This document shows, in pieces, positions 10,561-42,095 of a stretch of DNA of 46,638 nucleotides (position 1 is the stretch's first letter; every line of letters starts with the position of its first letter). The notes under the pieces were generated by a model that saw nothing but the letters and a program-made list of their open reading frames with translations, did not search any database and was not told the origin of the DNA. The DNA comes from Gemmatimonadota bacterium (GTDB lineage Bacteria; Gemmatimonadota; Gemmatimonadetes; Gemmatimonadales; GWC2-71-9), in the NCBI GenBank assembly GCA_009692115.1, contig SHZU01000009.1, positions 107,501 through 154,138 on the forward strand. Reading direction: 5' to 3'. Both the position numbers and the translations under genes were made by a program.

Positions 10561-11364
10561 CTAAGGCCGCCGAGCGTCGGCCGGGCGAACCATCTCGAGC
10601 GCCGGTCGTTTGGCGGTGCGGCCGTCGGCCGACGATCGGCCGCGGACATGGCGCCACATCCACGGAACGAGGTAGCGGCGCCCCCACTGGACTTCGGCAG
10701 CCGCCCGCTCAAGCCACGTGGGCGGAGCGACCGCCGGGAGCGGGTCGGCCCAGCGCTCGTCCGATCCCGGCAACCGTAACGCGTGCCCCAAGGCCGCCGC
10801 GATCCGGGCGTGGCCTTCGGCGTTGGCGTGGAGCCGGTCGTCGCTCCAGAGCCGCGGGTCGGACGCCACCGGGTGTTGGGCCACGTCCACCAAAATGGCG
10901 CCGCTCCGTGCCGAGGCCTGCCGGAGGGCCTCGTTCAACGCCAAGACTCTCGGCACCAGGCGGCGCGCCAACGGCATGACGGGGGTGAGATCAGGCAGGG
11001 TGAAGGTGAGGACGGTGGCGCCCTGCTGGACCAGCGCGGTCTGCATAGTCTCGACGTCGGCGGCCACGCGGCCGGGGTCGAACTCTCGCGTCACGATGTC
11101 GTTGGTACCGGAAAAAAGCGTCGCGAGGTTGGGTCGGAGCGCGAGCGCGACCTCGAGTTGGCTGTCGAGGATTTGCCGAGTCTTGAGACCCCGCACTCCG
11201 AGATTGGCGTAGAGCAGGGAGCCTTGGATTGACGCCACGCGTTCGGCCAGCCGGTTGGCCCATCCGCGGAACCCGCCCCGGCCGTCGGGATCGTCGAGTC
11301 CTTCGGTCGAGCTGTCGCCGATGGCGACGTAGCGTTCGAATCGTTGAGTGGGTGTTGCCGTCAT
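10561..11364 (-). CDS. SGNH/GDSL-type hydrolase
   Basis: A 267-residue esterase-family protein without a clear signal peptide. Block I is YVAIGDSSTEG with S18 as nucleophile, block III is LFSGTNDIV, and block V is DDRLHANAEGH with the Asp/His pair of the SGNH triad. The Arg-rich C-terminal ~60 residues lie beyond the core domain. It ends 7 bp from the 3' end of the convergent amidohydrolase-Kelch gene, and its start lies 16 bp from the tRNA-Ala fragment. Such enzymes deacylate lipids, sugars or thioesters; which one is not evident. Confidence 0.88.
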   Translation of the reverse strand: MTATPTQRFERYVAIGDSSTEGLDDPDGRGGFRGWANRLAERVASIQGSLLYANLGVRGLKTRQILDSQLEVALALRPNLATLFSGTNDIVTREFDPGRVAADVETMQTALVQQGATVLTFTLPDLTPVMPLARRLVPRVLALNEALRQASARSGAILVDVAQHPVASDPRLWSDDRLHANAEGHARIAAALGHALRLPGSDERWADPLPAVAPPTWLERAAAEVQWGRRYLVPWMWRHVRGRSSADGRTAKRPALEMVRPADARRP

Positions 11365-11380
11365 GGTGGGAACAACCTAA

Positions 11381-11421
11381 TGGAGCGGACCGGGATCGAA
11401 CCGGTGACCCTCTGCTTGCAA
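11381..11421 (-). tRNA. 3' half of tRNA-Ala(TGC) only: integration-site remnant
   Basis: On the minus strand the sequence runs from the anticodon arm (TTTGCAAGCAGAGG) through the T-arm ACCGG-TTCGATC-CCGGT to the acceptor strand CCGCTCCA. The 5' half of the tRNA (acceptor 5' strand, D-arm) is absent: upstream sequence is unrelated. This is the pattern left when a tyrosine-recombinase element uses a tRNA 3' end as its attachment site. The decayed recombinase 150 bp away supports that reading. It cannot encode a functional tRNA. Confidence 0.75.
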
Positions 11422-11574
11422 AAGTGACCAGCCCTGACGGCGGCCGGTCACGTGTGGTTCGTTGGAAGGGGCCTAACGTCTTCTCCGGCGGCAACCTGCA
11501 TGCACCCAAGATAGCAAGCGCGACCAACGATGGGGAGCCGTCCACTAGGCTGAAATACGCTGGTGACGCCTGTT

Positions 11575-11822
11575 CTAGGCACCAACTGAGGCATCGGAGG
11601 CCGGCCCGTCGCCGAGCAGCGATTCCATTTGGTGCGCCGCCCTCTTAGACCGGGAACCAGGTGGCTATAGGTGTCGAGGGTCAGCTTGATGCTCGCGTGG
11701 CCGAGCATGGCTTGCACCAACTTCGGGTGCAAATCGGCCGTGAGCAGGAGCGAGGCCGCGGAGTGGCGCAGGTCGTAGGGTCGAAGCCGGTCCAATCCGG
11801 TGCTGATCGTTCGGCTGGCTGT
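11575..11822 (-). pseudogene. Tyrosine recombinase (integrase), C-terminal remnant with frameshift
   Basis: The minus strand encodes the catalytic end of a phage-type integrase: LRPYDLRHSAASLLLTADL (the box II arginine, with Tyr where His is usual), then QAMLGHASIKLTLDTYSHLV with the box His and the nucleophile Tyr. Just after the Tyr the reading frame changes near 11650, in a G-rich run; the other frame continues RAAHQMESLLGDGPASDASVGA to a TAG at 11575-11577, a normal integrase tail. Upstream of about 11822 nothing resembles the core-binding or N-terminal domains. It is therefore both 5' truncated and frameshifted, and inactive. It points toward the tRNA-Ala fragment at 11381. Confidence 0.72.
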
Positions 11823-11823
11823 C

Positions 11824-12036
11824 GACGGGGCCGGGCCCTTTCCCACCCCCTCCGGGACGATCCGCTGCCCCCGCTGCCGGACGTTGGTCGACTGGCGGGC
11901 CGTATCGCAGCAGCAGCACCTGGCCGAGCTCCTAGAGCCGGACACCGCTCGGAGGCTCTGGACGGCCGACATGACTGTACCGGATCCGGATGACATGGTC
12001 CTGATGACCAAAGCGCCCCCCAGCTCGACACGCTGA
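11824..12036 (+). CDS. Possible small zinc-ribbon-like ORF (uncertain)
   Basis: A short frame with strongly GC-rich third positions reads FPTPSGTIRCPRCRTLVDW, then QQQHLAELLEPDTARRLWTA and PDPDDMVLM, ending at a TGA at 12034-12036. The single CPRC knuckle recalls half of a zinc ribbon. No good start or ribosome-binding site is visible, and the stretch sits between two decayed minus-strand fragments, so it may be a fragment or a chance frame. Confidence 0.25.
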   Translation, partial: DGAGPFPTPSGTIRCPRCRTLVDWRAVSQQQHLAELLEPDTARRLWTADMTVPDPDDMVLMTKAPPSSTR

Positions 12037-12069
12037 CCAGCCCAGACAACCCCAAGCCCTGACATGTCG

Positions 12070-12430
12070 TTAGGCCCCGGTGCCTTCGCCGGTGCCAGCT
12101 GTCGCGCCCTCGAGCGCCCGGTCGACCGCCGCGTACACGGCGGCGAGATCGCTTTGGAGGCGTACCCACAAGGCCCGGCGCTCGGGGCTGACGCCCTCGG
12201 CCGCGAGAATCTGCGCGGCCTTTCCCAGGGCGTCCCGGATGTAGACGAACGCCTAGAGCCGGGTCGCCGCTGACCGCCAGCTCCCGTAACCGTTCCATCA
12301 GACGGACCATCGCCCGGGTGCCCCGTTCGCAGTAGTCGAGCAGGTCCTGGCGGAGCCGGTCGCGCTCGGCCAGCTCCCGCCGCGGATCGCCGGAAAACCG
12401 GCGGTCTCGGTATATTCGGTCACCCTCTAT
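12070..12430 (-). pseudogene. Broken ORF of unknown function in the mobile-element scar
   Basis: Two minus-strand pieces in different frames look like one former protein. The first reads RRELAERDRLRQDLLDYCER then AMVRLMERLRELAVSGDP. After a frame change near 12255 the second reads AFVYIRDALGKAAQILAAEG then RALWVRLQSDLAAVYAAVDR and stops at a TAA (12070-12072). Both are helical and charged. The 5' end runs into the promoter of the hydrolase at 12447 without a convincing start. No family is recognised. Its position beside the integrase remnant suggests element cargo or an accessory gene. Confidence 0.5.
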
Positions 12431-20029: not shown

Positions 20030-20148
20030 GGTGTAGTGGACCGGTTCGCCTTCCGGGGGTCAATCGGGTAGGCGCTTCTCCCTTTCTCCGGCGGCGGCCA
20101 TGGGGCTGGAACTCGTAGGCAAGGTAGCGATCGTCACTGGCGCCGGTT
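20013..20148 (+). repeat. Direct repeat, copy B (promoter plus SDR 5' end)
   Basis: Partner of 18102-18237, ungapped. Copy B ends exactly where the serine-hydrolase stop codon begins (20149-20151 on the minus strand), which marks a recombination junction. The 70 bp between 19941 and 20012 hold nothing recognisable. Confidence 0.85.
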
Positions 20149-20150
20149 CT
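20100..20150 (+). pseudogene. Truncated SDR gene: first 17 codons only
   Basis: The ATG at 20100 starts MGLELVGKVAIVTGAGS, matching the intact SDR (MGQELVGKVAIVTGAGS) except for one residue. It then breaks off at the end of the antisense serine-hydrolase gene. It keeps a full promoter/operator copy, so the stub could still be transcribed into the 3' end of that gene. Confidence 0.8.
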
Positions 20151-21546
20151 ACTTGTCGGGGTTGATCTGGTACTGCTCCAGCGAGCCGTCGGCCAGCGCG
20201 CGCGTCGTGAGCAGCAGGGTTCGGGTTCCGGCCCTGATCCGAAAGGCGCGGTAGCTCATCCCACCTCGCAACTCGTACGCCACCGGGACGAATTCGGTCG
20301 GGCCGCCGAGCGGAGCAAGGCTGGTGGCGAAGTCCTCGACCGCTTCTCGGGAGAAGTAGGCGTTGGCGTTCGGGGTGAATAGCGTGCGATCGATCCTCCC
20401 GTTCTGCAGCTCCGCGAAAATCCGCCGTGCCTGGCTCAGCGCCGTGGCTGCCGCCGTGTCGGTGACGACGAAGAGGGTGGCCGCGATCCGGTCGGCAATG
20501 AGTCTGGTCGCCCGGGATTCGTCGTTGGAAAGGACGACGATCGCGGTTCGATCGTCCGGATACACCTCGTGGTAGGTGAAGTAACCCGAGGCTCCGCCAC
20601 TATGCGAGATCCGGCGCCGGCCGTTCGCGGAGCTCACGTTCACCCCGAGCCCGTAGCCCGCCCCCAAGCCGTTGACGAGGCGCGCCTCCGTTTCCATCAA
20701 CGCGTAGGAGGCCGGGCGGAGCCGCGCGCGGTTGATCAGGGCGATGTCCCACAGGGCGAGATCGTGGGCCGTCATCGCGAGCTGGCCGCAGCCGAAGAGC
20801 CAACCCTTGGCCTCCTTCGGCGCGGGGCGCCACGGACCGAGCGCATAGCGGGTATAGCCACCGGCGTCGGCCGGGCCGAGGGCACCGGTATCGGCGTCGG
20901 CCACCGACGTCATCCGGAGCGGGGTGAAGACCCGTTCCCGCAGGAACTCGAACAGCCCCTTCCCGCTGGCTTGCTCGACGATCAACCCGGCGATCGTGTA
21001 GTTGGTGTTGCTGTACTCCCATTTGGTGCCCGGCTCGAAATCCAACGGTATCCGCGCCCAGCGATCCGCGATCCTCTGGGGCGGGGTCGGCTCGAGCAGG
21101 TCCGAGAAGACGTAATCCTGGGGCCAGAAATCCTGGTAGCCAGCCGTCATCGAGAGCAGTTGGTGCAGGGCGATATCGTTCGACCGGGTGAGCTCAGGCA
21201 GCCATTTCGCCACCTTGTCGTCGAGGGAGAGCTTCCCGTCTTCGGCGAGAAGCAGCAGGGCGGCTGCGGTGAACTGCTTGGTGATGGAGCCGATGTTGTA
21301 GCGGGTCGTCGTCGTCGCGGGCATCGCCGGCGTCAGCCGTCGATTTCCGTAGGCCTGCTCGTAGACGATCTTGGCATCGCGCACGATGGCAATCGCCGCG
21401 CTCGGGCCGCCGTGGGCGGCGAGAATCCAGGTAGCCGCGCTATCGATCGCCCGGCGCTGGGCGACGGAAAGCCCCTCCTGGGCGTTCGTAGGCGAGCAGG
21501 CCACCGCCGTGACCGCCCCGGCGAGAAGAGTCGACCGGAGCCACAT
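20149..21546 (-). CDS. Beta-lactamase-family serine hydrolase (class C/penicillin-binding fold)
   Basis: A 465-residue exported protein: signal MWLRSTLLAGAVTAVACSPTNA, with VTAVAC a possible lipobox. The active site is complete: S87xxK90 in NIGSITKQF, Y178-S179-N180 in WEYSNTNY, and HSG in RRISHSGGASG. A C-terminal extension of ~110 residues (FTPNANAYFSREAVEDF to EQYQINPDK) resembles the beta-barrel lobe found in D-aminopeptidase and esterase relatives. An upstream ATG at 21639 would add 31 unlikely residues before the signal. It could be a peptidase or esterase; a drug-resistance role should not be assumed. Its 3' end abuts the SDR stub. Confidence 0.88.
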   Translation of the reverse strand: MWLRSTLLAGAVTAVACSPTNAQEGLSVAQRRAIDSAATWILAAHGGPSAAIAIVRDAKIVYEQAYGNRRLTPAMPATTTTRYNIGSITKQFTAAALLLLAEDGKLSLDDKVAKWLPELTRSNDIALHQLLSMTAGYQDFWPQDYVFSDLLEPTPPQRIADRWARIPLDFEPGTKWEYSNTNYTIAGLIVEQASGKGLFEFLRERVFTPLRMTSVADADTGALGPADAGGYTRYALGPWRPAPKEAKGWLFGCGQLAMTAHDLALWDIALINRARLRPASYALMETEARLVNGLGAGYGLGVNVSSANGRRRISHSGGASGYFTYHEVYPDDRTAIVVLSNDESRATRLIADRIAATLFVVTDTAAATALSQARRIFAELQNGRIDRTLFTPNANAYFSREAVEDFATSLAPLGGPTEFVPVAYELRGGMSYRAFRIRAGTRTLLLTTRALADGSLEQYQINPDK

Positions 21547-26715: not shown

Positions 26716-28182
26716 GTGTCCGACCGCACGAGGTGCCATCCGACCCCGCTGCGCCACCTTCGCTCCGCCGCGACCATCCTCGCCGCCGGCCTGTTGCTCG
26801 CCACGGGGGCGGCTTCGGCCCTCGCCCAGGAACGGCCGGAGGATCGTCGTCGGTACCTGGCTCCCGGTACCCAGGTATCGGACGACCCCCGACGGGTACC
26901 CGTGCCCCCGGGCCCGAGCGGGCCCGATGGAGCGATCGTGCTGCTCGGCGGGAGAATCTTCGACGGCACCGGGGCGCCGGCGCGGCCCGGGACGGTGGTG
27001 ATCGAGGGTAACCGAATCCGCGAGGTGCTGCCGGCCGGGCCGGGCGCGTGGCCCGCAGGCGCCCGGGTGATCGACGTTGGCGGAATGACCGTCCTTCCGG
27101 GGTTGATCGACCTCCATACCCACTTGAGCTACTACATGTCCGGGGGGTTCGGACCATCGGAGGAGCCTCAGAGTCTGATCGCCGATCCGATCCAGGGCAC
27201 CCTCCGAGGGGTCGAGCGGCTCCGGGCCTACATCGCCAGCGGCATCACCAGCGTTCGAGACGTCGGATCGCACGGCGACGTGGCCTTCCGGCTCAAGGAC
27301 TGGGTTCGGGCTCGTCGCCTTCCCGGTCCGCGCGTGTTCGCCGCCGGCAACTTGATCTCCGCCCGCGGCGGGCATGCCGCGGGGGGTCTCCGACCGGGGT
27401 CGCTACTGTTCGGGGCGGTACGGGTCGCGTCCGGTCCCGACGAATGGCGCGATGCGGTGCGCGAGCAGTACGAACGAGGGGCCGATTTCATCAAGCTGAC
27501 GAGCCATTTCACCCGCGAGGAGGTGGCGGCCGCCGTCGCGGAGGCCCACGCGCTAGGGCTCAAGGTGACGGTCGATGCCGAGACCTTCTACGTCCAGTGG
27601 GCGGTCGAGGCCGGGGCCGATTGCATCGAGCACCCGCTCCCCCGGAGCGACGAGGCGATTCAGCTGATGGCCACCAAGCGGACCTGCTCGGTGCCCACCG
27701 TCGTCTCCTACAAGTACATCTTCGACACCGTTCGCGGCTATTACGGCACGATGTCCCGTCGATTCACCTTCTCCCACGAGGCGAACGTCGAGATGGTGAG
27801 AAAGATGAAGCGCGCCAGTGTCACCATCGGGGTCGGCACCGACCTGGTCGGCGGCTGGTACCGGCACCTCCCCGCCGCCTACCTCACCGAGCTCAAGGTG
27901 CTCGTGGCCGCCGGGTTCACCGGGCCCGGGGCCCTGGTGGCCGCCACCGGGACGAACGCGGCCATTCTCGACATGGCCGACAAACTCGGCACCCTCGAGC
28001 CGGGCAAGCTCGCGGACGTCCTCGTGGTGCGGGGCAAACCCGATGAGAATCTCGATGACCTGACCCAGGTGCACCTGGTGGTCCGGGATGGGGAGGTGGT
28101 GGTCGAGCGAGGCCAGATCGTCAGTCTACCGCACGTGCCGCTGCCGGAGCCCGGCACCGCGCCAGCCCGCCGCACTCCGTGA
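26716..28182 (+). CDS. Secreted metal-dependent amidohydrolase (imidazolonepropionase/dipeptidase-like), copy 2
   Basis: A 488-residue close paralogue of the gene at 14342, sharing the signal peptide, the linker QVSDDPRRVPVPPGPSGPDG, HxH in LIDLHTHLSY, Lys in ADFIKLTSH, His in CIEHPLPRSDEA and Asp in GVGTDLVGG. The start is a GTG at 26716 with a consensus AGGAGG at 26705-26710; upstream frame to 26566 lacks a signal peptide. It heads an operon with the CocE-type and MmgE/PrpD genes (next start 32 bp on). A peptide- or amide-cleaving role in the periplasm is likely; the substrate may differ from copy 1. Confidence 0.9.
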   Translation: MSDRTRCHPTPLRHLRSAATILAAGLLLATGAASALAQERPEDRRRYLAPGTQVSDDPRRVPVPPGPSGPDGAIVLLGGRIFDGTGAPARPGTVVIEGNRIREVLPAGPGAWPAGARVIDVGGMTVLPGLIDLHTHLSYYMSGGFGPSEEPQSLIADPIQGTLRGVERLRAYIASGITSVRDVGSHGDVAFRLKDWVRARRLPGPRVFAAGNLISARGGHAAGGLRPGSLLFGAVRVASGPDEWRDAVREQYERGADFIKLTSHFTREEVAAAVAEAHALGLKVTVDAETFYVQWAVEAGADCIEHPLPRSDEAIQLMATKRTCSVPTVVSYKYIFDTVRGYYGTMSRRFTFSHEANVEMVRKMKRASVTIGVGTDLVGGWYRHLPAAYLTELKVLVAAGFTGPGALVAATGTNAAILDMADKLGTLEPGKLADVLVVRGKPDENLDDLTQVHLVVRDGEVVVERGQIVSLPHVPLPEPGTAPARRTP

Positions 28183-28214
28183 CCGGTACCGCATCGTTCG
28201 AGGGGGCAACCCGG

Positions 28215-30317
28215 ATGTCCGAGTCCCTAGCCGGGGTCTCGAGAGTAGTCGCGATCGCCGTGGTCGGCGCCTTCCTCGCGACCGCGCTCGGGGCTCAGAC
28301 CGCCAAGAAGCCAATCGTTCCAGCGTCCGCGCCCGAGTATGGAATCAGAGCCGACGAGAACGTCTGGGTCACCATGAAGGACGGGGTGCGCCTTTCCGGA
28401 CACATTTTCTTCCCGGTAGGCAAGCGCCGCGGTGAGCGGTTCCCGGTCCTGTTCCATCACACCCCGTACCGGGAAACCGCCGCCTCCCGGTACGGTGCCT
28501 CGTCGTACCTGGTGCGCCGCGGGTATGTCGATGCCCATTTCCAGGTCCGGGGAACCGGCCAGAGCGAGGGGGCGGTGCCCGATCGGGAGTACTCCGACCA
28601 GGAGATCGAGGACGCCATCGAAGTCATCGCTTGGCTCGCCCGCCAACCATGGTCCAACGGGCGGGTCGGCATGTATGGCGTGTCGTGGAGCGGTTTCAAC
28701 GCGGCTCAAGTCGCGATGCGCCGGCCGCCCGGACTCGAGGCCATCTCCGTCGGCGCCGGGACCGAGGATCTCTACCACGAGAACGTCCAGTACCTCGACG
28801 GGATTCTCCATTTCGGGAGTTACAACTTCGGGATAGACGTCCGCACCACCCAGAGCCCGCCGCCGGACTTCCCCCTCACGGACGCCGTCTTCCGAGATCG
28901 CTTCGACCAGCCCCCGTGGAGTCTCACCTTCCTCAAGCAACAGCGGGACGGCGACTACTGGCGCCGGGGGACACGGCTCGACCTCAAACCCGACGCCATC
29001 GCGATCCCGACCTTCATGATCGGCGGGTGGGTCGACACCTATCGCTCCAGCATCCCCCGCGCGCTGGACCGGATGAAAGCCCCAACGGTCGCGGTGATCG
29101 GCCCCTGGAATCATGACCTGAGAGACCCCGGCCCTGCGGTGGAGTACCGGCACCAGCAGATCCGCTGGTGGGACTACTGGCTCAAGGGACGGAACACCGG
29201 CATTCTCGACGAGCCCAGGGTCACCGCGTACATGCGGTATTCCCATCGCCCCGATCCCTGGATCCGGGGTCGCGACGTCCCGGGTGAGTGGCGGGCCGAT
29301 ACCTGGCCGCCACGAGGGCTGGCGTGGCAGCCGTGGTACCTGCAGCCCGATCACGACCTCCGCCGCACTCCGCCCGCCGACGCGACAACCCATCAGCTCG
29401 AGTACCTCCCCGCGGTCGGGCCGCAGGCGGGCCAGTATTGGACCAACACCCAGCCCGATCAACGAGCCGTCGACGCGTTCAGTCTGGTCTACGACTCGGA
29501 GCCACTCACGACGGACCTCGCGATCCTCGGCCGGCCGAAGGCGATCTTCGCCGCCTCGGCGACCGCGCCGCTGGCGCACTGGTTCGTTAGGCTGTCGGAT
29601 GTGGCGCCCGATGGCGTCACCACCCAGATCACCGGCGCGGGCTTGAACGGCGCCCACCGCGAATCCTCCACCGATCCGGCGCCGCTCGTGCCAGGCAAGG
29701 AATACCGCTTCGAAGTGAACCTTCACGTCACTTCGTGGGTCTTCAAGCCCGGCCATCGCATTCGAGTCGCGATCTCCAACGCTCTGTGGCCAATGCAGTG
29801 GCCGAGCCCGTACCCGATGACGACCTCGCTGGTCCTCGGCCCCGAAGGCGGACCGACGCCATCGGCCCAGATCCTCCTTCCGGTGGTGCCGCTCGAAAGC
29901 GGCTATCCGCTCCCCCCGTTCGTCGCGATGGCTCAAGAGACGGATCCGGTCATGCCCGGTGCCCCGCCACCACCACCGCTCCGCGGCCCCCTCGGGTTCA
30001 ACGCCCGTAAGCCCCAGAAGATCGATCGCGACGAAATCGCCGGCACGACTTCCGTCTCCCTGGAGGACGGCGTGCCGGGAACGACGACCAAGGTCGTCTG
30101 GCGGGTCAGTGACCTCCGGCCCGACCTTGCCTCCATCCGCGGCGAGCGGATCAACACCGTGAGGATTGGAGACCGCGAGCTGGTGTGGGAGGGATTCACC
30201 GAGATCCGGAGCGATTCCACCAACTTCTACTACCTGCACCGGCGGTGGGTCCGTGAGAACGGCCGGGTCGTCCGGGAGCGGAGTTGGCAGGACACGATCC
30301 CCCGGTTCTTCCGCTGA
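28215..30317 (+). CDS. CocE/NonD-type X-Pro dipeptidyl-peptidase family hydrolase, copy 1
   Basis: A 700-residue exported protein (signal ~1-27, ALGAQ). An alpha/beta-hydrolase domain, S157 in GMYGVSWSGF, carries an inserted helical cap; Asp lies near GGWVDTYRSS and His in GPWNHDL. A C-terminal jelly-roll domain (from ~480: RFEVNLHVTSWVFKPGHRIR) is typical of Xaa-Pro dipeptidyl-peptidase/cocaine-esterase proteins. The last ~130 residues, with a PPPPP run, resemble those of its paralogue at 31718. The ATG at 28215 follows GAGGGGGC; a GTG at 28179 overlapping the previous stop is an alternative. Xaa-Pro dipeptide release fits the context, but relatives also cleave esters. Confidence 0.9.
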   Translation: MSESLAGVSRVVAIAVVGAFLATALGAQTAKKPIVPASAPEYGIRADENVWVTMKDGVRLSGHIFFPVGKRRGERFPVLFHHTPYRETAASRYGASSYLVRRGYVDAHFQVRGTGQSEGAVPDREYSDQEIEDAIEVIAWLARQPWSNGRVGMYGVSWSGFNAAQVAMRRPPGLEAISVGAGTEDLYHENVQYLDGILHFGSYNFGIDVRTTQSPPPDFPLTDAVFRDRFDQPPWSLTFLKQQRDGDYWRRGTRLDLKPDAIAIPTFMIGGWVDTYRSSIPRALDRMKAPTVAVIGPWNHDLRDPGPAVEYRHQQIRWWDYWLKGRNTGILDEPRVTAYMRYSHRPDPWIRGRDVPGEWRADTWPPRGLAWQPWYLQPDHDLRRTPPADATTHQLEYLPAVGPQAGQYWTNTQPDQRAVDAFSLVYDSEPLTTDLAILGRPKAIFAASATAPLAHWFVRLSDVAPDGVTTQITGAGLNGAHRESSTDPAPLVPGKEYRFEVNLHVTSWVFKPGHRIRVAISNALWPMQWPSPYPMTTSLVLGPEGGPTPSAQILLPVVPLESGYPLPPFVAMAQETDPVMPGAPPPPPLRGPLGFNARKPQKIDRDEIAGTTSVSLEDGVPGTTTKVVWRVSDLRPDLASIRGERINTVRIGDRELVWEGFTEIRSDSTNFYYLHRRWVRENGRVVRERSWQDTIPRFFR

Positions 30318-30340
30318 GCTCATTCGAGAGAAGGAGGACC

Positions 30341-31666
30341 ATGAGAGTCGCCGATTTCATCCACGGGTTGCGCTGGGAGAACATCCCTGGCGAGGCGCGG
30401 CAATACGCGCGACGCTGTCTCCTCGACACGGTCGGCGCGGGCCTGGGCGGGCGACGCACCGAACTCTCGCGGATCATCTTCGACTTCGCCGCCTCGGCCT
30501 TCGGAGGGCGCGGCGCGCATCTGTGGCTGGACGGGCGCGAGGTCTCGCCTGCCGGGGCGGCCCTGGCCAATGGCATGACGGTGGATGCCCTCGACATTCA
30601 CGATGGTTACAAGCCGACGAAGGGCCACGCCGGGGCGGCGCTCGTCCCCGCCCTCTTGGCCTCGCTGAGACTCAGACCCGGACGGGTCTCCGGCGAAGAA
30701 CTACTCGCCACCCTGGCGATGGGCTACGAGATTGCCTTGCGCGCGGGCATCGCGTTGCACGCCACAGTCTCCGACTACCACACGTCTGGCGCGTGGAACG
30801 CACTTGGCTGCGCTGCCATCGCCGCACGACGGCTTGGCTCCACGGCGGAGCAGACGCGGCACGCCCTCGGCATCGCCGAATACCACGGCCCGCGCTCGCA
30901 GATGATGCGGTTGGTCGACCAGCCAACGATGCTCAAGGACGGCTCGGGTTGGGGCGCGATGGCGGGCGTCAGCGCGGCGCTGATGGCGCACGGCGGCTTC
31001 ACCGGCGCGCCCGCCCTCACCGTCGAGGCGCCTGAGGTTGCGGGTCTGTGGAACGATCTCGGAGCGACGTGGCACATCGCGGGCCAATACTTCAAGCCCT
31101 ACGCGGTCTGCTACTGGGCGCAGGCCCCGATCCACGGAGCGCTCACTCTCCAACGCGCCCACGCCCTCACGCTGGACGTGATCCGGCGCATCCGGGTACA
31201 CACCTTCCACGAGGCCACCCGGCTGGCCGTGCGCCGTCCGCACACCACCGAGGAAGCGCAATACAGCGTGCCCTTTCCCGTAGCGGCGGCGCTGGTGCAT
31301 GGGCAGGTCGGGCCGGAACAACTGAGCGGCCGGGCGTTGCAGGATCCGCGCGTCCTGGCGATCTCTGATCGTGTCGAGCTGGTCGAAGAGGACGCCTACA
31401 ACCAGCGCTTCCCGGCTGAGCGCGTTGCGCGCGTGGTCATTGAGACCACTGACGGCGCGATACTGGACTCCGGCGAGATGCGGCCGCGCTGGGATACCGG
31501 CGGGGACGCCCGGCCCGGCGACGACGACCTGCGTGAAAAGTTCCGCTGGCTGGCGAAGGGCTGTCTTCCGGAGCAGCGCGCGCTGGCGTTGGAGGCCGCG
31601 CTTTGCGAGTGCGACCGGCTACCCGATGCCGAGCAGATTCTCTCCCTGTTGACGCCTTCGAATTAG
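30341..31666 (+). CDS. MmgE/PrpD family protein
   Basis: A 441-residue cytoplasmic protein of the 2-methylcitrate dehydratase/cis-aconitate decarboxylase/iminodisuccinate epimerase family. Typical segments are RRCLLDTVGAGLGG, ALANGMTVDALDIHDGYKP, NALGCAAIAARRLG, GIAEYHGPRSQMMR and a C-terminal AAALVHGQVG lobe. AAGGAGG stands 3 bases before the ATG, and only 23 bp separate it from the CocE-type gene, so it ends the operon. True PrpD would need propionate genes (prpB, prpC), which are not here; a hydro-lyase or epimerase step on an amino-acid-derived acid is more likely. By eye its GCGC-rich composition differs from its neighbours. Confidence 0.85.
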   Translation: MRVADFIHGLRWENIPGEARQYARRCLLDTVGAGLGGRRTELSRIIFDFAASAFGGRGAHLWLDGREVSPAGAALANGMTVDALDIHDGYKPTKGHAGAALVPALLASLRLRPGRVSGEELLATLAMGYEIALRAGIALHATVSDYHTSGAWNALGCAAIAARRLGSTAEQTRHALGIAEYHGPRSQMMRLVDQPTMLKDGSGWGAMAGVSAALMAHGGFTGAPALTVEAPEVAGLWNDLGATWHIAGQYFKPYAVCYWAQAPIHGALTLQRAHALTLDVIRRIRVHTFHEATRLAVRRPHTTEEAQYSVPFPVAAALVHGQVGPEQLSGRALQDPRVLAISDRVELVEEDAYNQRFPAERVARVVIETTDGAILDSGEMRPRWDTGGDARPGDDDLREKFRWLAKGCLPEQRALALEAALCECDRLPDAEQILSLLTPSN

Positions 31667-31717
31667 AAACTGGCGCGTCGCAGGCTCAACCCAGATCGCA
31701 CCGTCCGAACGGGCGAC

Positions 31718-33832
31718 TCAACGAAACAGACGCGGCATCGAGTCCTGCCACCTCCGCTCGCGGATGACCTTCCCGTTCTCGAGCAGCCGGCGACGATGTT
31801 CGTAGTAGAAGAAGACCGAATCGCTCCGCACGTTCGTCACCCCTTCCCAGACGAGCTCTCGGCCCGGTAGCCGGTACCGATTGACCGCTTCGGTTCGGTA
31901 CGCCGCGGCGTCGGGCCGCAGGTCGCTGACCTCATACCTGGCGTAGCCGCGGTGGTCTTCCTCGTCCGGACTCGGCGGGCGCCCGATGATCATCGTGGTG
32001 GTCGCCGTGTTCTCGTCGCGAATGATCTGGTCGACCACGTAATCGAACCCGGGCCGCAGGAACCCGCCGGGCGGCGGGGGGGCTTGGCGGACGATCGGTT
32101 GTTGCCCCTCTTGCAACGCGGCGGTGAACGCGGGGACTCGGACGCCGTTTCGGAGGGGGACGATCGGCAGCAGCACCTGGCTCGCGGGGCGGCGCGAGCT
32201 CGCGCCGTTCGCGGTCGTTTCCCCCGGCGCCCCGACATAGAGCGACGTGGTCATCTGATATGGCGTCGGCCAGGCCATCGGCCACTGCGAGTTGGATACC
32301 GCGATGCGGATGCGGTGTCCAGGCTCGAAGATCCAGGAGGTGACGTGCAGCTTCAGGTCGAGATGGTACCCGGCGCCCGGCGTTAGGTACGAAGGCTTCA
32401 TCGACCCGTCGCGCTGCGCCCCATTGATCCCGGCGCCCGTGATCAGGGTCACCGACCCATCGGGAGCCACGTCGGAGAGCCGAACGAACCAGTGGGCCAG
32501 CTTGGCCGTGGCCGAGACCGCCAACTTGGCCTGCGGGTGGCCGAGGATCGCCATCGGCGCGGTGAGCGGCTCGGAATCATAGACCAGGCTGTAGGCGTCG
32601 GCGGGCCGTTGGTCCGGCTGCCGCGCGCCCCAGAGCACCCCGGCCGCGGCGCCGGTGCCCGGCAGGTACTTGAGCCGATGCACGGCGCCACGTCCCGCGG
32701 TCGCTCGCGCCAACTGGTGATCGGCGCGGAGAAAGTACGGCGTCATCACCTGGCCCCGTGGGGGCCAGGTATCTCCCCGCCACTCGCCAGGAATGGGCAA
32801 GTCCTGGTTCATCTCGGTCCCAGGCGGGTGCGACCGACGCATGAACACCGTGACCAGCGGCTCGTCCATGACCCCGGTGTTCCGGCCCTTGAGCCAGTAG
32901 TCCCAGAAGCGGACTTCCTCAAGCCGAACGTCGACCATCGCCGGGTAGCGGGCCATTCGGTGCTCCCAAGGACCGATGATCGCGCGGATCGGGCCGCGCG
33001 CGTTGAGCAGGGCGCGGGGAATGCTTGAGCGATAGGTGTCATACCAGCCGCCGATGCGGAGCTGCGGAATCGTGATGAGGCCGGGATTCACGTCAAGCCG
33101 CTGCTCGTTTCGCCAAAAGGGGCCATCCGTCTGATTCTTGAGATAGAGCATGTTCCAGGGCGGCTGATCGAAGCGATCCCGGAATAGCTCCTCGGTCAGT
33201 GGGAAGTCGGGCCCGGGGCTCTGCGACACCATCAGGTCTTCGTAGGCATGCCAGCCATAGAAGAGCCGGATGCCATCCAGATAGTGGATGTCCTCGTGGT
33301 AGAGGTCGTCGGTTGCATGCTGGGGCCTGATCGCCTTCAGCGCCGGCGGGTTCCGCATGGCGAGTTGGAGGCTGTTGAACCCACCCCACGAGTTGCCCTG
33401 CATGCCCACGCTTCCGTTGGACCACGGGCGCTTGGACAGCCAATCGATGACCTCGAGCCCGTCCACCATCTCCTGTTCCGAGTACTCTCGGGAGGGCGCG
33501 ACGCCCTCGCTCCGACCGGTTCCGCGAATATTGACGGTGGCGTCCACGTACCCGCGACGAGCGAAATACAGATCGGCATTCGGGGTTGGCAGGTCGCGAT
33601 AGGGCGAGTAGTACAGCCGTACCGGGAACTTCTCGCCCGGCTGTTTGGGAACCGGCAGGTACATGAATCCCCAGAGCTGCACCCCGTCCTTCATCGGGAT
33701 CCGCACCGTGTCGAGCCGAGTCTCGTACTCGGGCTGCGAGGGCGGCAGCACCGGACCTCGCGCTTGAGCGACCAGCGACGTCCCGACCACGGTAGCGCCG
33801 GCGGTCAGCCACCCCACGACTCGAGCAGCCAT
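31718..33832 (-). CDS. CocE/NonD-type X-Pro dipeptidyl-peptidase family hydrolase, copy 2
   Basis: A 704-residue exported paralogue of the gene at 28215, with the same order: signal peptide (~1-25, SLVAQA), S148 in GMQGNSWGGF, GGWYDTYRSS, IGPWEHRM, then a jelly-roll domain (LDLKLHVTSWIFEPGHRIR). The ATG at 33832 has GGGAGG just upstream. It is the last gene of the minus-strand sox operon, 69 bp after the symporter. It faces the MmgE/PrpD gene tail-to-tail with 51 bp between and no obvious terminator. The two paralogues at opposite ends of convergent operons probably arose by duplication. Confidence 0.9.
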   Translation of the reverse strand: MAARVVGWLTAGATVVGTSLVAQARGPVLPPSQPEYETRLDTVRIPMKDGVQLWGFMYLPVPKQPGEKFPVRLYYSPYRDLPTPNADLYFARRGYVDATVNIRGTGRSEGVAPSREYSEQEMVDGLEVIDWLSKRPWSNGSVGMQGNSWGGFNSLQLAMRNPPALKAIRPQHATDDLYHEDIHYLDGIRLFYGWHAYEDLMVSQSPGPDFPLTEELFRDRFDQPPWNMLYLKNQTDGPFWRNEQRLDVNPGLITIPQLRIGGWYDTYRSSIPRALLNARGPIRAIIGPWEHRMARYPAMVDVRLEEVRFWDYWLKGRNTGVMDEPLVTVFMRRSHPPGTEMNQDLPIPGEWRGDTWPPRGQVMTPYFLRADHQLARATAGRGAVHRLKYLPGTGAAAGVLWGARQPDQRPADAYSLVYDSEPLTAPMAILGHPQAKLAVSATAKLAHWFVRLSDVAPDGSVTLITGAGINGAQRDGSMKPSYLTPGAGYHLDLKLHVTSWIFEPGHRIRIAVSNSQWPMAWPTPYQMTTSLYVGAPGETTANGASSRRPASQVLLPIVPLRNGVRVPAFTAALQEGQQPIVRQAPPPPGGFLRPGFDYVVDQIIRDENTATTTMIIGRPPSPDEEDHRGYARYEVSDLRPDAAAYRTEAVNRYRLPGRELVWEGVTNVRSDSVFFYYEHRRRLLENGKVIRERRWQDSMPRLFR

Positions 33833-33901
33833 GTGCCTCCCATCCATCAAATGGGAACGCGATTTCAGGTACGAATCCAAACGAGGGTCGGTCAAGCTGG
33901 G

Positions 33902-35284
33902 TCAGCGCTCGTCTCGAGCCGCTACCACCTCGGCCTCGCCGTCGCGGATTGCAACCGGGTCTGGGGGCACCCATCCGATGAGCGTCTTCGACAGCACGAG
34001 TGCGGCGATCGCCACCGCGAGCAGTACCAGCGCCGGGAGCAGACCCATCCCCCGTGCGATCAGCACCGGCACGATCGCCACGATCGCGAGTTCGATGAAG
34101 GAGTTGCCCAGATACGCGGTGCCGTAGTCCTGCAAGGTCCCGCTCTTCAACTTGGGATCCACGACTCGAAGGAGGGCGATGCCGGTGGCGAGAACGCCGG
34201 TGGCCCAGCCGAAGGTGAAAAGGCTCCGCTCGAACCAGAAGTTGCCGAAGATCCGCCGGCCCAGCCAGAAGGTCCAGAGCGTGAAGACCATACCGAGCGC
34301 AAAGAGCAACAGCAGCGGAGCGAGGTAGCGTACGACGACGGTGATGGCGATGGAAGCGATCCCGAATCCGACCAGGTAGTCCGCCGAGCTCGAGGCGATC
34401 CGCGCCATCAACCTGGCGTCGATCGAATCGGTGAGGCGGAGCAGTCCGAGGGCCCAGCGCACGCCCCACCCGGTGAGCAAGGCCAGGGCGAAGAGGGGAA
34501 TCCCGTGCTCAGGGGGCAACGCCGTCAAGATCGCGTGCGCGAGCCAGACCGCCGCGCCCGCGAGCGCGAGGTGCCAGGTCAGCACGTCGAGCACCGCGGC
34601 GTTCACGGTCTCCTGTCCAGCGGAGGATCGCTCCGGCTCCGGAACGAAGCCGGTTCGAAAGCTCGAGGGCAGCGCGCTCGGAGCGCCGACGACTCGAGTC
34701 CAGCCCCGCCGTATGCCGAGGTGGATCAGCGCCATTCCCGCGATGGTTCCCACCGCGACGCCGATCGTGGCCGAGGTATAGCCTAGCGCGAGAAAATCGG
34801 GGAACCCGCGGGGCTCGAGCACGCTTCCGATCGCGGCTGCGGTCCCGAAGCCGCCGGCCCAACCCGCCGGCAGCACGAGGGCGAAGCCCTCGGGGAGCGA
34901 CGGGAACAGTCGATCGAGGACGAGCAGGCCGAACAGCAACGCGACGGCGTACTGTCCCACGAAGCAGATGATGTTGTAGAAGAAAAGGTCGCCGATGTGG
35001 CGCCACTGCGTCCGCCCCGGCTTCCCAGCGGTGCGGCCCAGAGGGAGAGCGGCGAAGATCAGCGCGATGAGGTAACCTGGATAACTCGCCAGATACGTTC
35101 CGCCGTCGGCCCGTTCGCTGAACGGGATGATGTCGACGCCGTAGCGCCCGCCGATCAGCGCGATCACCCCGGCCACCATCGCGGTCGGGATTCGGCTTGC
35201 CTGCAGCAGTCGCGACCGGGAGCGGAGCAACTGCGCGATCACCAGCAACAACGACATCAAGCCGAAGTCGACTAAGAGCTGCAT
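33902..35284 (-). CDS. GltS-like sodium:glutamate symporter family
   Basis: A 460-residue inner-membrane transporter with about ten to twelve hydrophobic segments, many glycine-containing (PAGWAGGFGTAAAIGSVL is the conserved family segment near residue 145). No signal peptide; the first helix is LLVDFGLMSLLLVIAQLL. Family members carry glutamate or related carboxylates with Na+. It starts inside soxG (13-bp overlap), so it is in the sox operon and may import an amino acid that feeds that pathway. The substrate is inferred only. Confidence 0.85.
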   Translation of the reverse strand: MQLLVDFGLMSLLLVIAQLLRSRSRLLQASRIPTAMVAGVIALIGGRYGVDIIPFSERADGGTYLASYPGYLIALIFAALPLGRTAGKPGRTQWRHIGDLFFYNIICFVGQYAVALLFGLLVLDRLFPSLPEGFALVLPAGWAGGFGTAAAIGSVLEPRGFPDFLALGYTSATIGVAVGTIAGMALIHLGIRRGWTRVVGAPSALPSSFRTGFVPEPERSSAGQETVNAAVLDVLTWHLALAGAAVWLAHAILTALPPEHGIPLFALALLTGWGVRWALGLLRLTDSIDARLMARIASSSADYLVGFGIASIAITVVVRYLAPLLLLFALGMVFTLWTFWLGRRIFGNFWFERSLFTFGWATGVLATGIALLRVVDPKLKSGTLQDYGTAYLGNSFIELAIVAIVPVLIARGMGLLPALVLLAVAIAALVLSKTLIGWVPPDPVAIRDGEAEVVAARDER

Positions 35285-35976
35285 GGCGGCTCCGTCGGAT
35301 CACCAGCTCGGATCGCGCCCGAGTCGAACGACCGAGTTGCTGCCCACCCCGCGAACCACTCGTCGAAACGGGCTTCCCCGGCTGGACCGAGACCGCAGGG
35401 ACGGGCGAACTTGAGCGCCGCCTCGGCGAAGGTCCGGCCGTAGCCTCGGCTCAAAGTCATCACCACCGCACTCCTGTCCAACGCCACCACCTGACAGGGG
35501 ACGTGGAGCACCGGGCCCTGCACCAAGCGGGGAAGGCCGCGCTCCCGGTCGAAGAGGTCGAGGTTGGTGAGATGCTCGAACACGGAGGCGATCTCCGAGC
35601 CCAGGAAGGCGAGCATGCAGTGCCCATCCGTCGTCTCGGTGAAACCGATCCCGGACGGCATCAGAGGCCGGTCGCTCGCGCCCAGATGCCAGAGTGATGC
35701 CTGGGTCCGGTTCATCCGGTTGACGACGAAGCCGCCCGAGATCGCCACCTCGCCCGGCTTGCCGGGCACCGGCACGCCGAAAGGGCGCTGGCTTCCTACT
35801 TCAGGGTGTTGCAGGTCCCAGCGGGAGCGGTGGCTCAGATCGATCAGCCACGGGCCGCCCCCCTCGTCCGGGTAGCGCCGGATGATGTCCCAGCCGTCTC
35901 GCTGAACGCGCTCGAGAGCCCCGGCGTCGAAGCGCACCGGCGACTGGCGGATCCGGGTCCCTCTGGTCGCGATCAC
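35272..35976 (-). CDS. soxG: Sarcosine oxidase gamma subunit-like
   Basis: A 234-residue protein with a GcvT/SoxG-like pattern (LIDLSHRSRWDLQHPEV, LWHLGASDRPLMPSGIG, DGHCMLAFLGSE and a C-terminal GYGRTFAEAALKFA). The GTG start overlaps the soxA TGA (GTGA), which suggests translational coupling. In heterotetrameric sarcosine oxidase the gamma subunit is needed for assembly. Assignment leans on position directly after soxA and is less certain than for the other subunits. Confidence 0.78.
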   Translation of the reverse strand: MIATRGTRIRQSPVRFDAGALERVQRDGWDIIRRYPDEGGGPWLIDLSHRSRWDLQHPEVGSQRPFGVPVPGKPGEVAISGGFVVNRMNRTQASLWHLGASDRPLMPSGIGFTETTDGHCMLAFLGSEIASVFEHLTNLDLFDRERGLPRLVQGPVLHVPCQVVALDRSAVVMTLSRGYGRTFAEAALKFARPCGLGPAGEARFDEWFAGWAATRSFDSGAIRAGDPTEPPCSS

Positions 35977-38903
35977 GCCCGTAACCTCGCCCCCTCGGGG
36001 TCGTAGAAGTGTGGCGCGACGACCGTCCCCCCCGTCACCGATGGCGTGCCGCCCGGATTGGAGTAGATCTGGACCGTTCCTCGCTCCGGTGCGTGGCGGT
36101 CGGTGATCAGCGCGAGGGCATACTGCCAGCCCAACGTCTCGCTCATCCGGGTAGTGCAGAGGTAGCCGACCACTTCCTTGCCGTCGATCACGATGTCACC
36201 GTCCTCCGGGCGGCGCTGGGCCTCGTCGATCCGGAGGCCCACCAGCTTCAATCGGCCGGCCTGTCCGATGGCGTGGCGGAGCGCCGGCGCCCCGACCTTC
36301 TTCGAGGCGGTGTCTTTGCGGTCCCAGAGAAAACCCATCCCGATGTCGGTGAGGGTCACTCGCTGCTCCGATTCGATCCCGATGATGACATGGCCCTTTT
36401 CCGCCCGAAGGCAGTTCTGCGCCTCGAGTCCGAACGGACGAATCCCGAACTCCGCCCCGGCCGCCATCAGCAGATCCCAGAGGTACCTGCCATAGCTCGA
36501 CGGCGCATGCAGCTCGTAGGAGAGCTCGCCGACGAATCCCAACCGGAGGCAGCGGACCGGGACGCCGTCACCAACCACGATCTCGCGATACCCCATGTAG
36601 GGAAAGGCCTCGGGGGAGAGGTCGGCGTCGGTGATCTTGGCCAAGACCTTGCGAGCGTTGGGCCCGGCGATGTTGAGCGATCCTAGCGTGTCGGTGAGGT
36701 TGACGAGGTGATACTCCCAGCCATCGTAACGAGTGTGATAACGGAACCACTCGACGGTGGCTCCGGCCCGGGCCGAGCTGGTGGTGAAGTAGTAGTCACC
36801 GGGGGCGATTTCGACCACGACTCCGTCGTCCATCAGGTTGCCGGTGTCGTTGCACATCGCCGAGTACTTGCAGCGGCCAGGCTTGGTCTTCGACAGGTCG
36901 GAGATGTGAACCCGCTGCAGCGCCTTGAGCGCGTCGGGTCCGTAGATCCTGAACTTGCCGAGGGGCGAGCTGTCGAGCATCCCGACGTTGGTGCGGACGT
37001 TCCGAATCTCCTCGCGGCAGCTGAGATCGGCGCTGAAGTACCGGGCCCGCTGCCACGCGCCCGCGGCCCGGAAGATGGCGCCGAGCCCTGCCTGCGCGTC
37101 GTGCAACGCGGTCTCCTTGTGCACCTCGAGCCCGGGCCCGGCCAGCGTGGCCAGACGAGGCGGAACCAACGGCGGACGAACCGTGGTGCCCGACAGCTGA
37201 TCGAGCGGCGTACCGTTGAGGACCGCCATGATCATCGCCAGGTTCTGGCCCGGGACGTGGTACTGACCCGGCCCCAGGCCGAATCCGCCGAACCGCTTGG
37301 CCAACTCGGGGGCGTCGAATCCCTGAGCCACCGACTCAACCACGTTCTTGTAGCTGCCATCCTCGTCGAAATCCACGAAGGACTTGGCTCCGCGCCCAAT
37401 CCCGGGAGCGCACGCCAGGAAGCAGCCGGCCGCCGGGCCAGGCGAGCTCCGCACGACTTCTCGTGCCTCGCGGATCCGCGATTCTGCCTCCCATCCGGTG
37501 GCGGCCGCCGCCTCGAGTCCGGCCAGCCGGCCCGACGCCTCGATCGCGGCGACGTCGCGGAGGCCAAGCATGGTGCCCGCGACGAAGACCCGTTCCGGTA
37601 ACCGGGTCGGTTGGAACATCCCCGTCCGAGTGCAGTAGCCGAGACCGGCGTTGAGCGTCGAGAGCGGCCCGATCAGTGACTGCAGCCCGGCGTTCGCCAG
37701 GAGCAGATCGCAGCGAAGCTCCTCGGCTCCTTCGCGACCGATCCGCCGGAGCTCGACCCCCGTCACCCGGTTCGTGCCCCGAGCCGCAGCCGCGGTCCAG
37801 CCGGGCAAGAACCGAATGCCAGCCCCACCGATCGCCGCGACCAACTCTGGATCGTGACCCTCGGGCCGTGCGTCGGCGACCGCCGCGACCTCCACGCCGT
37901 ACCCGGCCAGCTCGACGGCGGCCTCGAGGCTCGTATCGTCGCCCACGGCGAAGACGGCCCGGCGCCCGGGAAGCACCCCGTAGCTGGCAGCCAGGCGCCA
38001 CGCGGCCGACGCTTGCATCACGCCCGGGCGTTCGTTGTGCTCGAACACCAGCGGGCGCTCGGTGCACCCCGATGCGACCACCACCGAGCGGGCCCGGCAC
38101 TCGTAGTGGTACTCCCGGGCGATGCCTCCTTCAGGGCAGACCTGGAACCCGGTCACCAGATTCTCACCCCACACTCCGGTGACCGGGGCGTGGGTGAACA
38201 CCCGGATGTTGGAACATGCCGCCACCCGAGCAGCCAGCTCGGCCGCGCGGCGATGGAGCGGCTGCCCGTTCAGCGGCCGGGTCCGCCAGTCGAGGTGCCC
38301 TCCCAGGCGGGGCCGCCGCTCGAAGAGGCAGACTCGCCCGCCCGACTCGGCGGCAGCGAGCGCGGCGGCCATCCCAGCCGGCCCGCCGCCCACCACCGCC
38401 ACCTCGGCATTGAGATAGCGCTCGAACCGACCACCGGGCTCGCCCGAGGCTGCCGGATCGAGGACGCCCAGCCCGGCCATGGCCCGGATCCGGTCCTGGA
38501 AGAACGGCCACAGTCGGGCGGGTCGATGGAAGAGCCGATAGTAGAATCCGGCCGGCATCAGGCGGTCGAAGCGATCGAGCAACCCGAAGGGGTCGCGCTC
38601 GGGATCCCCGCGGACGTTCTGGGCTCCGATCGCCATCCCGGGCCGAAGCAGGGTGGTTTCCGCCGCTTCGTTAGGCACCCCATCGATCGCCACGAAGGCG
38701 CTGGCGCTCTCGCCGTCGAGGCCGTAGAGCCCGCGGGGACGATGATACTTGAGGCTCCGGCTGAAGACCCGGACGCCGGCGGCATAGAGCGCGCTGGCCA
38801 CGGTATCGCCGGCGGCCCCTTCCGCCTCGCCGCCCCAATACCGGAATCGGATCGGTCGGGACGGATCGATCCGCTGGGTCGGAGTGGCCGGCAGCCTAGC
38901 CAC
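35973..38903 (-). CDS. soxA: Sarcosine oxidase alpha subunit
   Basis: A 976-residue subunit of tetrahydrofolate-dependent heterotetrameric sarcosine oxidase, which oxidises sarcosine to glycine, passing the methyl carbon to THF and electrons to O2. An N-terminal ferredoxin-like domain (FRYWGGEAEG, RSLKYHRPRGLYG) is followed by a dinucleotide-binding domain (EVAVVGGGPAGMAAALAAA), the middle oxidoreductase part, and a C-terminal GcvT-like folate domain (about 590-976: MLDSSPLGKFRIYGPDALKA, GFVGELSYELHAP). The GTG at 38903 overlaps the soxD stop by 8 bases; an ATG at 38960 is possible. Length is normal for the family. Confidence 0.95.
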   Translation of the reverse strand: MARLPATPTQRIDPSRPIRFRYWGGEAEGAAGDTVASALYAAGVRVFSRSLKYHRPRGLYGLDGESASAFVAIDGVPNEAAETTLLRPGMAIGAQNVRGDPERDPFGLLDRFDRLMPAGFYYRLFHRPARLWPFFQDRIRAMAGLGVLDPAASGEPGGRFERYLNAEVAVVGGGPAGMAAALAAAESGGRVCLFERRPRLGGHLDWRTRPLNGQPLHRRAAELAARVAACSNIRVFTHAPVTGVWGENLVTGFQVCPEGGIAREYHYECRARSVVVASGCTERPLVFEHNERPGVMQASAAWRLAASYGVLPGRRAVFAVGDDTSLEAAVELAGYGVEVAAVADARPEGHDPELVAAIGGAGIRFLPGWTAAAARGTNRVTGVELRRIGREGAEELRCDLLLANAGLQSLIGPLSTLNAGLGYCTRTGMFQPTRLPERVFVAGTMLGLRDVAAIEASGRLAGLEAAAATGWEAESRIREAREVVRSSPGPAAGCFLACAPGIGRGAKSFVDFDEDGSYKNVVESVAQGFDAPELAKRFGGFGLGPGQYHVPGQNLAMIMAVLNGTPLDQLSGTTVRPPLVPPRLATLAGPGLEVHKETALHDAQAGLGAIFRAAGAWQRARYFSADLSCREEIRNVRTNVGMLDSSPLGKFRIYGPDALKALQRVHISDLSKTKPGRCKYSAMCNDTGNLMDDGVVVEIAPGDYYFTTSSARAGATVEWFRYHTRYDGWEYHLVNLTDTLGSLNIAGPNARKVLAKITDADLSPEAFPYMGYREIVVGDGVPVRCLRLGFVGELSYELHAPSSYGRYLWDLLMAAGAEFGIRPFGLEAQNCLRAEKGHVIIGIESEQRVTLTDIGMGFLWDRKDTASKKVGAPALRHAIGQAGRLKLVGLRIDEAQRRPEDGDIVIDGKEVVGYLCTTRMSETLGWQYALALITDRHAPERGTVQIYSNPGGTPSVTGGTVVAPHFYDPEGARLRA

Positions 38904-39147
38904 CGGGGCTCTCTTCTCGATTGGTGGCCGGGTTGCGGGTCGTTTTGAACCACACGCCACAGCCCTGGCCGTGGTACCACCACTCGGGTTGCGGAGCGGG
39001 TGGAATCGAGCGGAACTGAGCGTATCGGAAGTGGGCTTCCGCGCAGAGCCCTTCCTGGGCCGGCCGAGGTCCGCGGTCCTGCCCGCCGCACGTGAACTCG
39101 TGGACGTCGCGGCGACCGCAGATCGGACAGGTGAGCGTGAAGGTCAT
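38896..39147 (-). CDS. soxD: Sarcosine oxidase delta subunit
   Basis: An 83-residue zinc-binding subunit: CPICGRRDVHEFTCGG at the N-terminus and HGQGCGVWFKTTRN near the C-terminus supply the usual cysteine ligands. It lies between soxB (14 bp upstream) and soxA (8-bp overlap), the standard soxBDAG order. Confidence 0.93.
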   Translation of the reverse strand: MTFTLTCPICGRRDVHEFTCGGQDRGPRPAQEGLCAEAHFRYAQFRSIPPAPQPEWWYHGQGCGVWFKTTRNPATNREESPGG

Positions 39148-39161
39148 GGCTGTGGTGAGCT

Positions 39162-40394: not shown

Positions 40395-40410
40395 GGGTTG
40401 GGGCCGTCGG

Positions 40411-40605
40411 CTATCCGACCACGGAGTACGACGAATCCAGGTTCTTGGTTCGGCGCCAGCCGCCGGGGCCGGCGGCGGAGGTCCACTTGGGATTGGGAGG
40501 TGGCCGGTTCATCGGATCCGGTTCCGGGATGAGGTCCGGCGGAAACTCTGAACGCAAGAACGAACTCTCGCCCGAGTGCCCTTCCGTCACGGCCATTCCG
40601 CCCAT
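40411..40605 (-). CDS. Small hypothetical protein heading the sox operon
   Basis: A 64-residue polypeptide from the ATG at 40605, which has GGAG nine bases upstream; a TTG at 40620 is an alternative. It is polar and Pro-rich in the middle (PDLIPEPDPMNRPPPNPKW) and ends WRRTKNLDSSYSVVG, with no signal peptide or membrane segment. Spacing of 16 bp to soxB and 86 bp from operator 6 fit a first-gene position. I recognise no family. The opposite strand is also open here but less protein-like. Confidence 0.5.
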   Translation of the reverse strand: MGGMAVTEGHSGESSFLRSEFPPDLIPEPDPMNRPPPNPKWTSAAGPGGWRRTKNLDSSYSVVG

Positions 40606-40690
40606 TTGGTCGATCTCCAAGGTGGAGTGCCGTTGGCGCCCTGAAGGGGGCTCGGCGTCGGTGCGGGGGGTCTTGCGCCCTTCCGCCTAT

Positions 40691-40707
40691 GCATGCATGC
40701 TGTATAC
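40691..40707. promoter_or_regulatory. Putative GntR operator 6, divergent promoter
   Basis: GCATGC-ATGCT-GTATAC, between the minus-strand sox operon and the plus-strand FAD dehydrogenase operon (start 40754). It includes the palindrome TGTATACA. One site could control both operons. Confidence 0.55.
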
Positions 40708-40753
40708 AGCTTAGGCTTCCAGGTTCATTCCTGCAAGGAGAAACGGCCGATCC

Positions 40754-42082: not shown

Positions 42083-42095
42083 TCACGGAGAAACG

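Follow-up and report, generated by a model that had tools for sequence, protein, structure and literature searches.

At the right end of a contig from a Gemmatimonadota bacterium, a short piece of a tRNA-Ala(TGC) gene lies beside the tail of a tyrosine recombinase gene. Do the two mark the place where a mobile element once entered the tRNA gene, and if so, where is the other end and what came in between them? The stretch of DNA analysed here (the window) is 46,638 nucleotides long and forms the right end of contig C9 in a draft genome of 3.12 Mb and 23 contigs. The features that bear on the question are as follows.

10561-11364, minus strand: GDSL lipase gene (PF13472), 16 bp past the tRNA fragment, in the outer (chromosomal) flank
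11381-11422, minus strand: tRNA-Ala(TGC) 3' fragment, nt 32-73 (anticodon loop to 3' end), presumed attachment core; 97.6% over 42 nt to the gene at G000:C10:151304-151376
11575-11646, minus strand: integrase C-terminal end in a shifted frame, to the stop (frames read by eye)
11637-11840, minus strand: tyrosine recombinase C-terminal part (RPYDLRH...DTYSH), 5'-truncated; PF00589, E=2e-8, model positions 120-168 of 172
12070-12252, minus strand: open stretch of 60 aa plus stop, no start codon seen, no relative found
12278-12373, minus strand: 5'-truncated DUF2779 gene, with ~32 codons of its C-terminal end left; matches residues 452-483 of a 491-residue relative in G006 (81%, 32 aa)
12447-46638, no strand given: element-side DNA to the contig end, with hydrolase, transport-type and sarcosine-oxidase-type genes by Pfam; collinear with G005:C7 at 28179-45160

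The fragment is identical to the intact tRNA-Ala(TGC) gene of the same genome at 41 of 42 nt, with one mismatch. The identity stops exactly at the 3' end of the tRNA, and its other limit lies 1 base 5' of TTGCAA. No other place in the window matches the 3' half of the tRNA at up to 3 mismatches, none of 100 dinucleotide shuffles matches it, and the genome-wide E value is 3.4e-14. The preliminary description had recognised a tRNA-Ala(TGC) 3' half here, and these values bear it out. An intact tRNA at the site, which would speak against a fragment, was also looked for, and ARAGORN found no complete tRNA in the window. An exact-match search of viral contigs with one pattern of the presumed attachment core returned no stretches.

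If the fragment is one end of an insertion, an intact tRNA-Ala should exist elsewhere in the genome, as had been predicted together with the search that would find it. That search recovers the intact gene at C10:151304-151376, on another contig and with the same 3' end, as the sole other match in the genome at up to 3 mismatches; the 3' sequence is thus common to a genomic tRNA-Ala. From the end of this tRNA it is 1,563 bp to the right end of C10, and from the fragment 35,216 bp to that of C9, which puts at least 36.8 kb, plus an assembly gap, between the two junctions today. Past the tRNA, C10 continues into the presumed element, and C9 leads from its end back to the fragment: this is the layout required of the two ends of one insertion. 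With one end on each contig, no continuous element is visible, and a comparison of the ends of all 23 contigs gave no join between C9 and C10. On C10, the 5'-truncated open frame of an S9 peptidase (model positions 100-208 of 213, the C-terminal half) starts 46 bp downstream of the tRNA, and the contig end cuts an amidohydrolase gene. In the sister genome G005 (contig C44, locus L170) a SusD-type gene precedes the relative of this amidohydrolase. A join of C10 to C9 through the gene was considered and rejected: the only matches of L170 were C10 and, at 77%, the window, in a search that covered the window, stretches of C9, C10 and C11, both ends of all 23 contigs and the whole of C19-C23.

A draft assembly in 23 contigs leaves some room for a chimera that joined unrelated DNA at the shared 42 nt. 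We regard this as very improbable, as the copy is one base off the tRNA and diverges from it beyond both ends, and copies of this kind are found in other assemblies too.

The integrase remnant consists of the last ~75-90 codons of the gene, broken by a frame change, and points at the fragment, from which its C-terminus is separated by ~150 bp. It retains DLRH and DTYSH, which we take to be catalytic residues. In G005, a 433-aa open frame for an integrase matches it at residues 347-414 (59% identity over 68 aa, E=1.6e-22), and an integrase of G087 matches it with 52% over 79 aa. About the first 346 residues of the G005 open frame are missing from the remnant; this and the partial PF00589 match confirm the reported 5' truncation. 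The reported frameshift is visible by eye, with ...DTYSHLVPGL in one frame and KRAAHQMESLLGDGPASDASVGA followed by a stop in another, but the match of the shifted-frame tail to the G005 integrase (29% over 21 aa, E 1.1) is not significant alone.

What had been described as another frameshifted ORF resolves into the DUF2779 tail of ~32 aa and, after it and in another frame, the 60-aa stretch that lies between this tail and the integrase end; an origin of both from one gene is a candidate explanation. The tail has a match in 46 of 150 other genomes, and its G006 relative contains PF11074. For the 60-aa stretch, none of the 150 genomes has a relative at E <= 0.001. Of the several lesions that had been read as old decay, the frame changes could, taken by themselves, stem from errors of sequencing or assembly; for the two 5' truncations this is hardly possible.

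In tRNA-integrated islands, the usual mechanism is recombination that leaves a whole tRNA at one end and a displaced 3' fragment at the other. We consider it very likely, with a probability of roughly 0.8, that the window contains the decayed attachment end of a tRNA-Ala(TGC)-integrated element, an ordinary island scar. An integrative element with a tyrosine recombinase would have entered the tRNA-Ala(TGC) gene at its 3' end. Recombination between the tRNA 3' half carried by the element and the gene would have left the whole tRNA at the end now on C10 and the displaced 42-nt fragment at the other, beyond which the former downstream neighbourhood would continue with the GDSL gene. Later decay would have reduced the integrase to its 3' end and truncated the neighbouring DUF2779 gene. 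We infer both this recombination event and the amount of intervening DNA that came with the element. The earlier proposal that the fragment is a former attachment end agrees with the 41/42 duplicate up to the exact 3' end of the tRNA, the adjoining integrase remnant and the intact tRNA on C10.

Islander is a collection of tRNA-integrated genomic islands with a displaced tRNA fragment (PMC6917214). Its islands share with the window an intact tRNA, a displaced fragment and a tyrosine-recombinase gene near an end; the window differs from them in that the integrase and its neighbours are decayed and the ends lie on different contigs, so that the limits of an island are not definable (PMC6917214). 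Judged by the standards of such a collection, the genome has an intact tRNA with the same 3' end (41/42 nt), and the displaced fragment reaches the 3' end of the tRNA in the orientation that integration would leave, since the GDSL gene beyond it points the same way, relative to the tRNA, as it does in the sister genomes G001 and G002. The tyrosine recombinase is represented by a remnant, not by a working gene.

These two sister genomes also indicate what the site looked like before. On contig C3 of G002, relatives of the three C10 genes that precede the tRNA (54-65%, 73% and 53% identity), tRNA-Ala and the GDSL gene all lie within ~11 kb. The tRNA (132393-132465) and the GDSL gene (138023-138778) are on the same strand, 5.6 kb apart and in the expected orientation, and farther upstream C10 and this contig have further genes in common (70-81%). 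On contig C51 of G001, tRNA-Ala and the GDSL gene lie 3.0 kb apart on the same strand, and in both genomes the GDSL gene is downstream of the tRNA. The closeness of tRNA and GDSL gene in G002, together with the relatives of the C10 flank, and in G001 makes it probable, as judged from gene order, that the two junctions were formerly neighbours. The arrangement occurs in two of five same-genus genomes, and the link to the right flank consists of one gene. In G003 and G005, both drafts, the GDSL gene and tRNA-Ala are on different contigs, and G004 has no close copy of the tRNA among the matches listed. Neither the G001 nor the G002 site is empty, and no clean empty site was seen. Between tRNA and GDSL gene, we take the genes, by eye, to be a biotin-type cluster in G002 and hydrogenase-maturation-type genes in G001; this difference in content suggests that the site has been variable. 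Among 80 named loci with flanks of up to 10 kb, one has a GDSL gene near tRNA-Ala(TGC), with a length and layout that match the G001 contig, and in a further named GDSL locus (L237) the tRNA-Ala has another anticodon.

How much of the DNA between the junctions came with the element? A Pfam scan of 12.4-46.4 kb, excepting 19.9-21.8 kb, short ORFs and the assembly gap, covered 20 genes. They include hydrolases, a GntR regulator, amidohydrolases, S9/S15 peptidases, an SDR, a proline racemase, SusD, a TonB receptor, MmgE/PrpD, sarcosine-oxidase-type, amine-oxidase and other enzymes; 35272-35976 has no Pfam family. Mobility, transfer, replication or virion families were not found in these 20 genes, which therefore do not have the transfer, replication or virion content of an ICE or prophage. 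At 20067-20162, after the proline racemase gene, the start of the SDR gene (18153-) is partly repeated, with similar DNA upstream.

Identity to G005 at fourfold sites varies along this DNA. It is 0.63-0.78 in 10 of 10 genes of the block at 28-45 kb, compared with 0.55 for rpoB, 0.52 for atpA and 0.59 for atpD. The amidohydrolase at the end of C10 reaches 0.76 against G005:C44 and 0.59 against its second relative on G005:C40. The values are 0.45 for the GDSL gene, 0.45 for proline racemase, 0.56 for the SDR, and 0.52 for SusD and 0.42 for TonB (against G005:C40, possibly paralogues). Genes at 18-26 kb are as diverged from G005 as housekeeping genes or more so; the values do not cover the genes at 12.4-18 kb. 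Against G002, in a comparison that did not cover the block, fourfold-site identity is 0.37-0.58. Protein identities do not set the block apart (82-95%, against 85-91% for atpA, atpD and rpoB); only its silent sites stand out. The lower silent-site divergence from G005 at 28-45 kb than in three housekeeping genes suggests that this block was exchanged later between the lineages of the window and G005, in either direction, and makes it probable that part of the DNA between the junctions has been exchanged. This likeness does not show that a tRNA-directed element carried the block. The earlier suggestion that the DNA between the ends may have been acquired holds only in part: unusual similarity at silent sites is seen for the 17-kb block and for the C10-end gene against one of its two G005 relatives, but not for the other genes, and the gap hides the span.

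The same values bear on a reading that overlaps with the main one, namely that a large island of at least 36.8 kb was acquired as a unit and is still bounded by the two tRNA copies, which would make the site an end and not a scar. The block and the C10-end gene (against G005:C44) do exceed the housekeeping values, which speaks for such an island. However, the genes at 18-26 kb do not, the C10-end gene falls to 0.59 against its other relative, and G002 and G005 have the SDR and proline racemase genes as well, there on contigs that lack the GDSL gene. With no mobility family in the 20 genes, a broken integrase and contigs that are not joined, we find a single island of this kind unlikely.

By its position, we infer that the window integrase made the insertion at tRNA-Ala. 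Relatives of its 49-residue tail were found in 7 of 150 other genomes at E <= 1e-9. Two of the seven loci (G005 and G002) have tRNA-Arg beside the integrase and G087 has an unassigned tRNA-like match; the other four have no tRNA within the up to 1.5 kb read, and tRNA-Ala adjoins the integrase in none of the seven. The 3' end of the integrase faces the 3' end of the tRNA in G005, the 5' end of the tRNA in G002, and the 5' side of the tRNA fragment in the window. Facing and neighbours thus vary within the integrase subfamily, and with them the use of sites. An HMM built from five of the relatives, without L102 and L088, had no match in 30 tRNA-Ala loci with 1.5-kb flanks. As controls, it recovered the window remnant (E 8e-24), L102, L103 and L176, among them two relatives from outside the five; it missed the distant G007 integrase, and its result therefore speaks for this subfamily only.

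We searched 61 genomes for the same tRNA, 59 of which gave some match; the counts of fragments are minimum numbers. Among the matches listed, displaced 3' copies occur, besides the window, in G003 (same genus; 1.7 kb beyond the intact tRNA gene), in G007 (same family; 15.7 kb beyond it; 47 nt, 87%) and in G039 (same order, with no intact tRNA within the 19 kb read). In G007, the stretch between tRNA and copy (L088, G007:C180, 7762-19901, continued in L089, 1-3727) starts with an integrase 82 bp past the tRNA. Like the window, it combines the same target tRNA, a 3' fragment downstream and a tyrosine recombinase at one end. Unlike the remnant, this integrase is whole and lies beside the whole tRNA rather than the fragment; its best match to the remnant is not significant (E 0.08), and the cargo of the stretch is defence-like, with a MerR-type regulator, a DUF4011/AAA/REase_MTES_1575 protein, a patatin, a SMODS nucleotidyltransferase and a TIR protein. 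This 15.7-kb integrase-bearing stretch between the tRNA and its 3' copy makes it very probable that the tRNA-Ala(TGC) gene serves as a landing site within the family.

The 15.7-kb stretch itself looks like a tRNA-borne defence island, its SMODS nucleotidyltransferase and patatin being CBASS-like. The reverse of the usual 3' fragment was seen in G010 (L090, 15914-15950) and G025 (L091, 6548-6584), where displaced 5' halves of tRNA-Ala (nt 1-37 to 1-40) lie upstream of the intact gene.

The recurrence of such copies also weighs on the idea that a rearrangement or short duplication copied the end of the tRNA without site-specific recombination, with the integrase tail as a bystander. Many element-side genes do have relatives elsewhere in the sister genomes, and the DNA downstream of tRNA-Ala differs among G001, G002, G003 and G005, which speaks for this idea. 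Yet the window copy spans the anticodon loop to the exact 3' end of the tRNA, with an integrase C-terminus ~150 bp away, which is the canonical layout, and similar copies recur in relatives; we hold a copy made in this way to be improbable.

A scar of tRNA and integrase is of a well-known type, and its mechanism is textbook knowledge. It is conceivable, though quite unlikely, that tRNA-Ala(TGC) is a recurrent landing site of the family by which large catabolic blocks pass from species to species within the genus, the blocks persisting longer than the integrase that carried them in. If that were true, the blocks moved would be those with peptidases, amidohydrolases and sarcosine-oxidase-type genes. 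The present finding adds an integration site for a lineage whose closest named records are assemblies from metagenomes, and gives, in tRNA-Ala(TGC), a named gene at which to look for islands.
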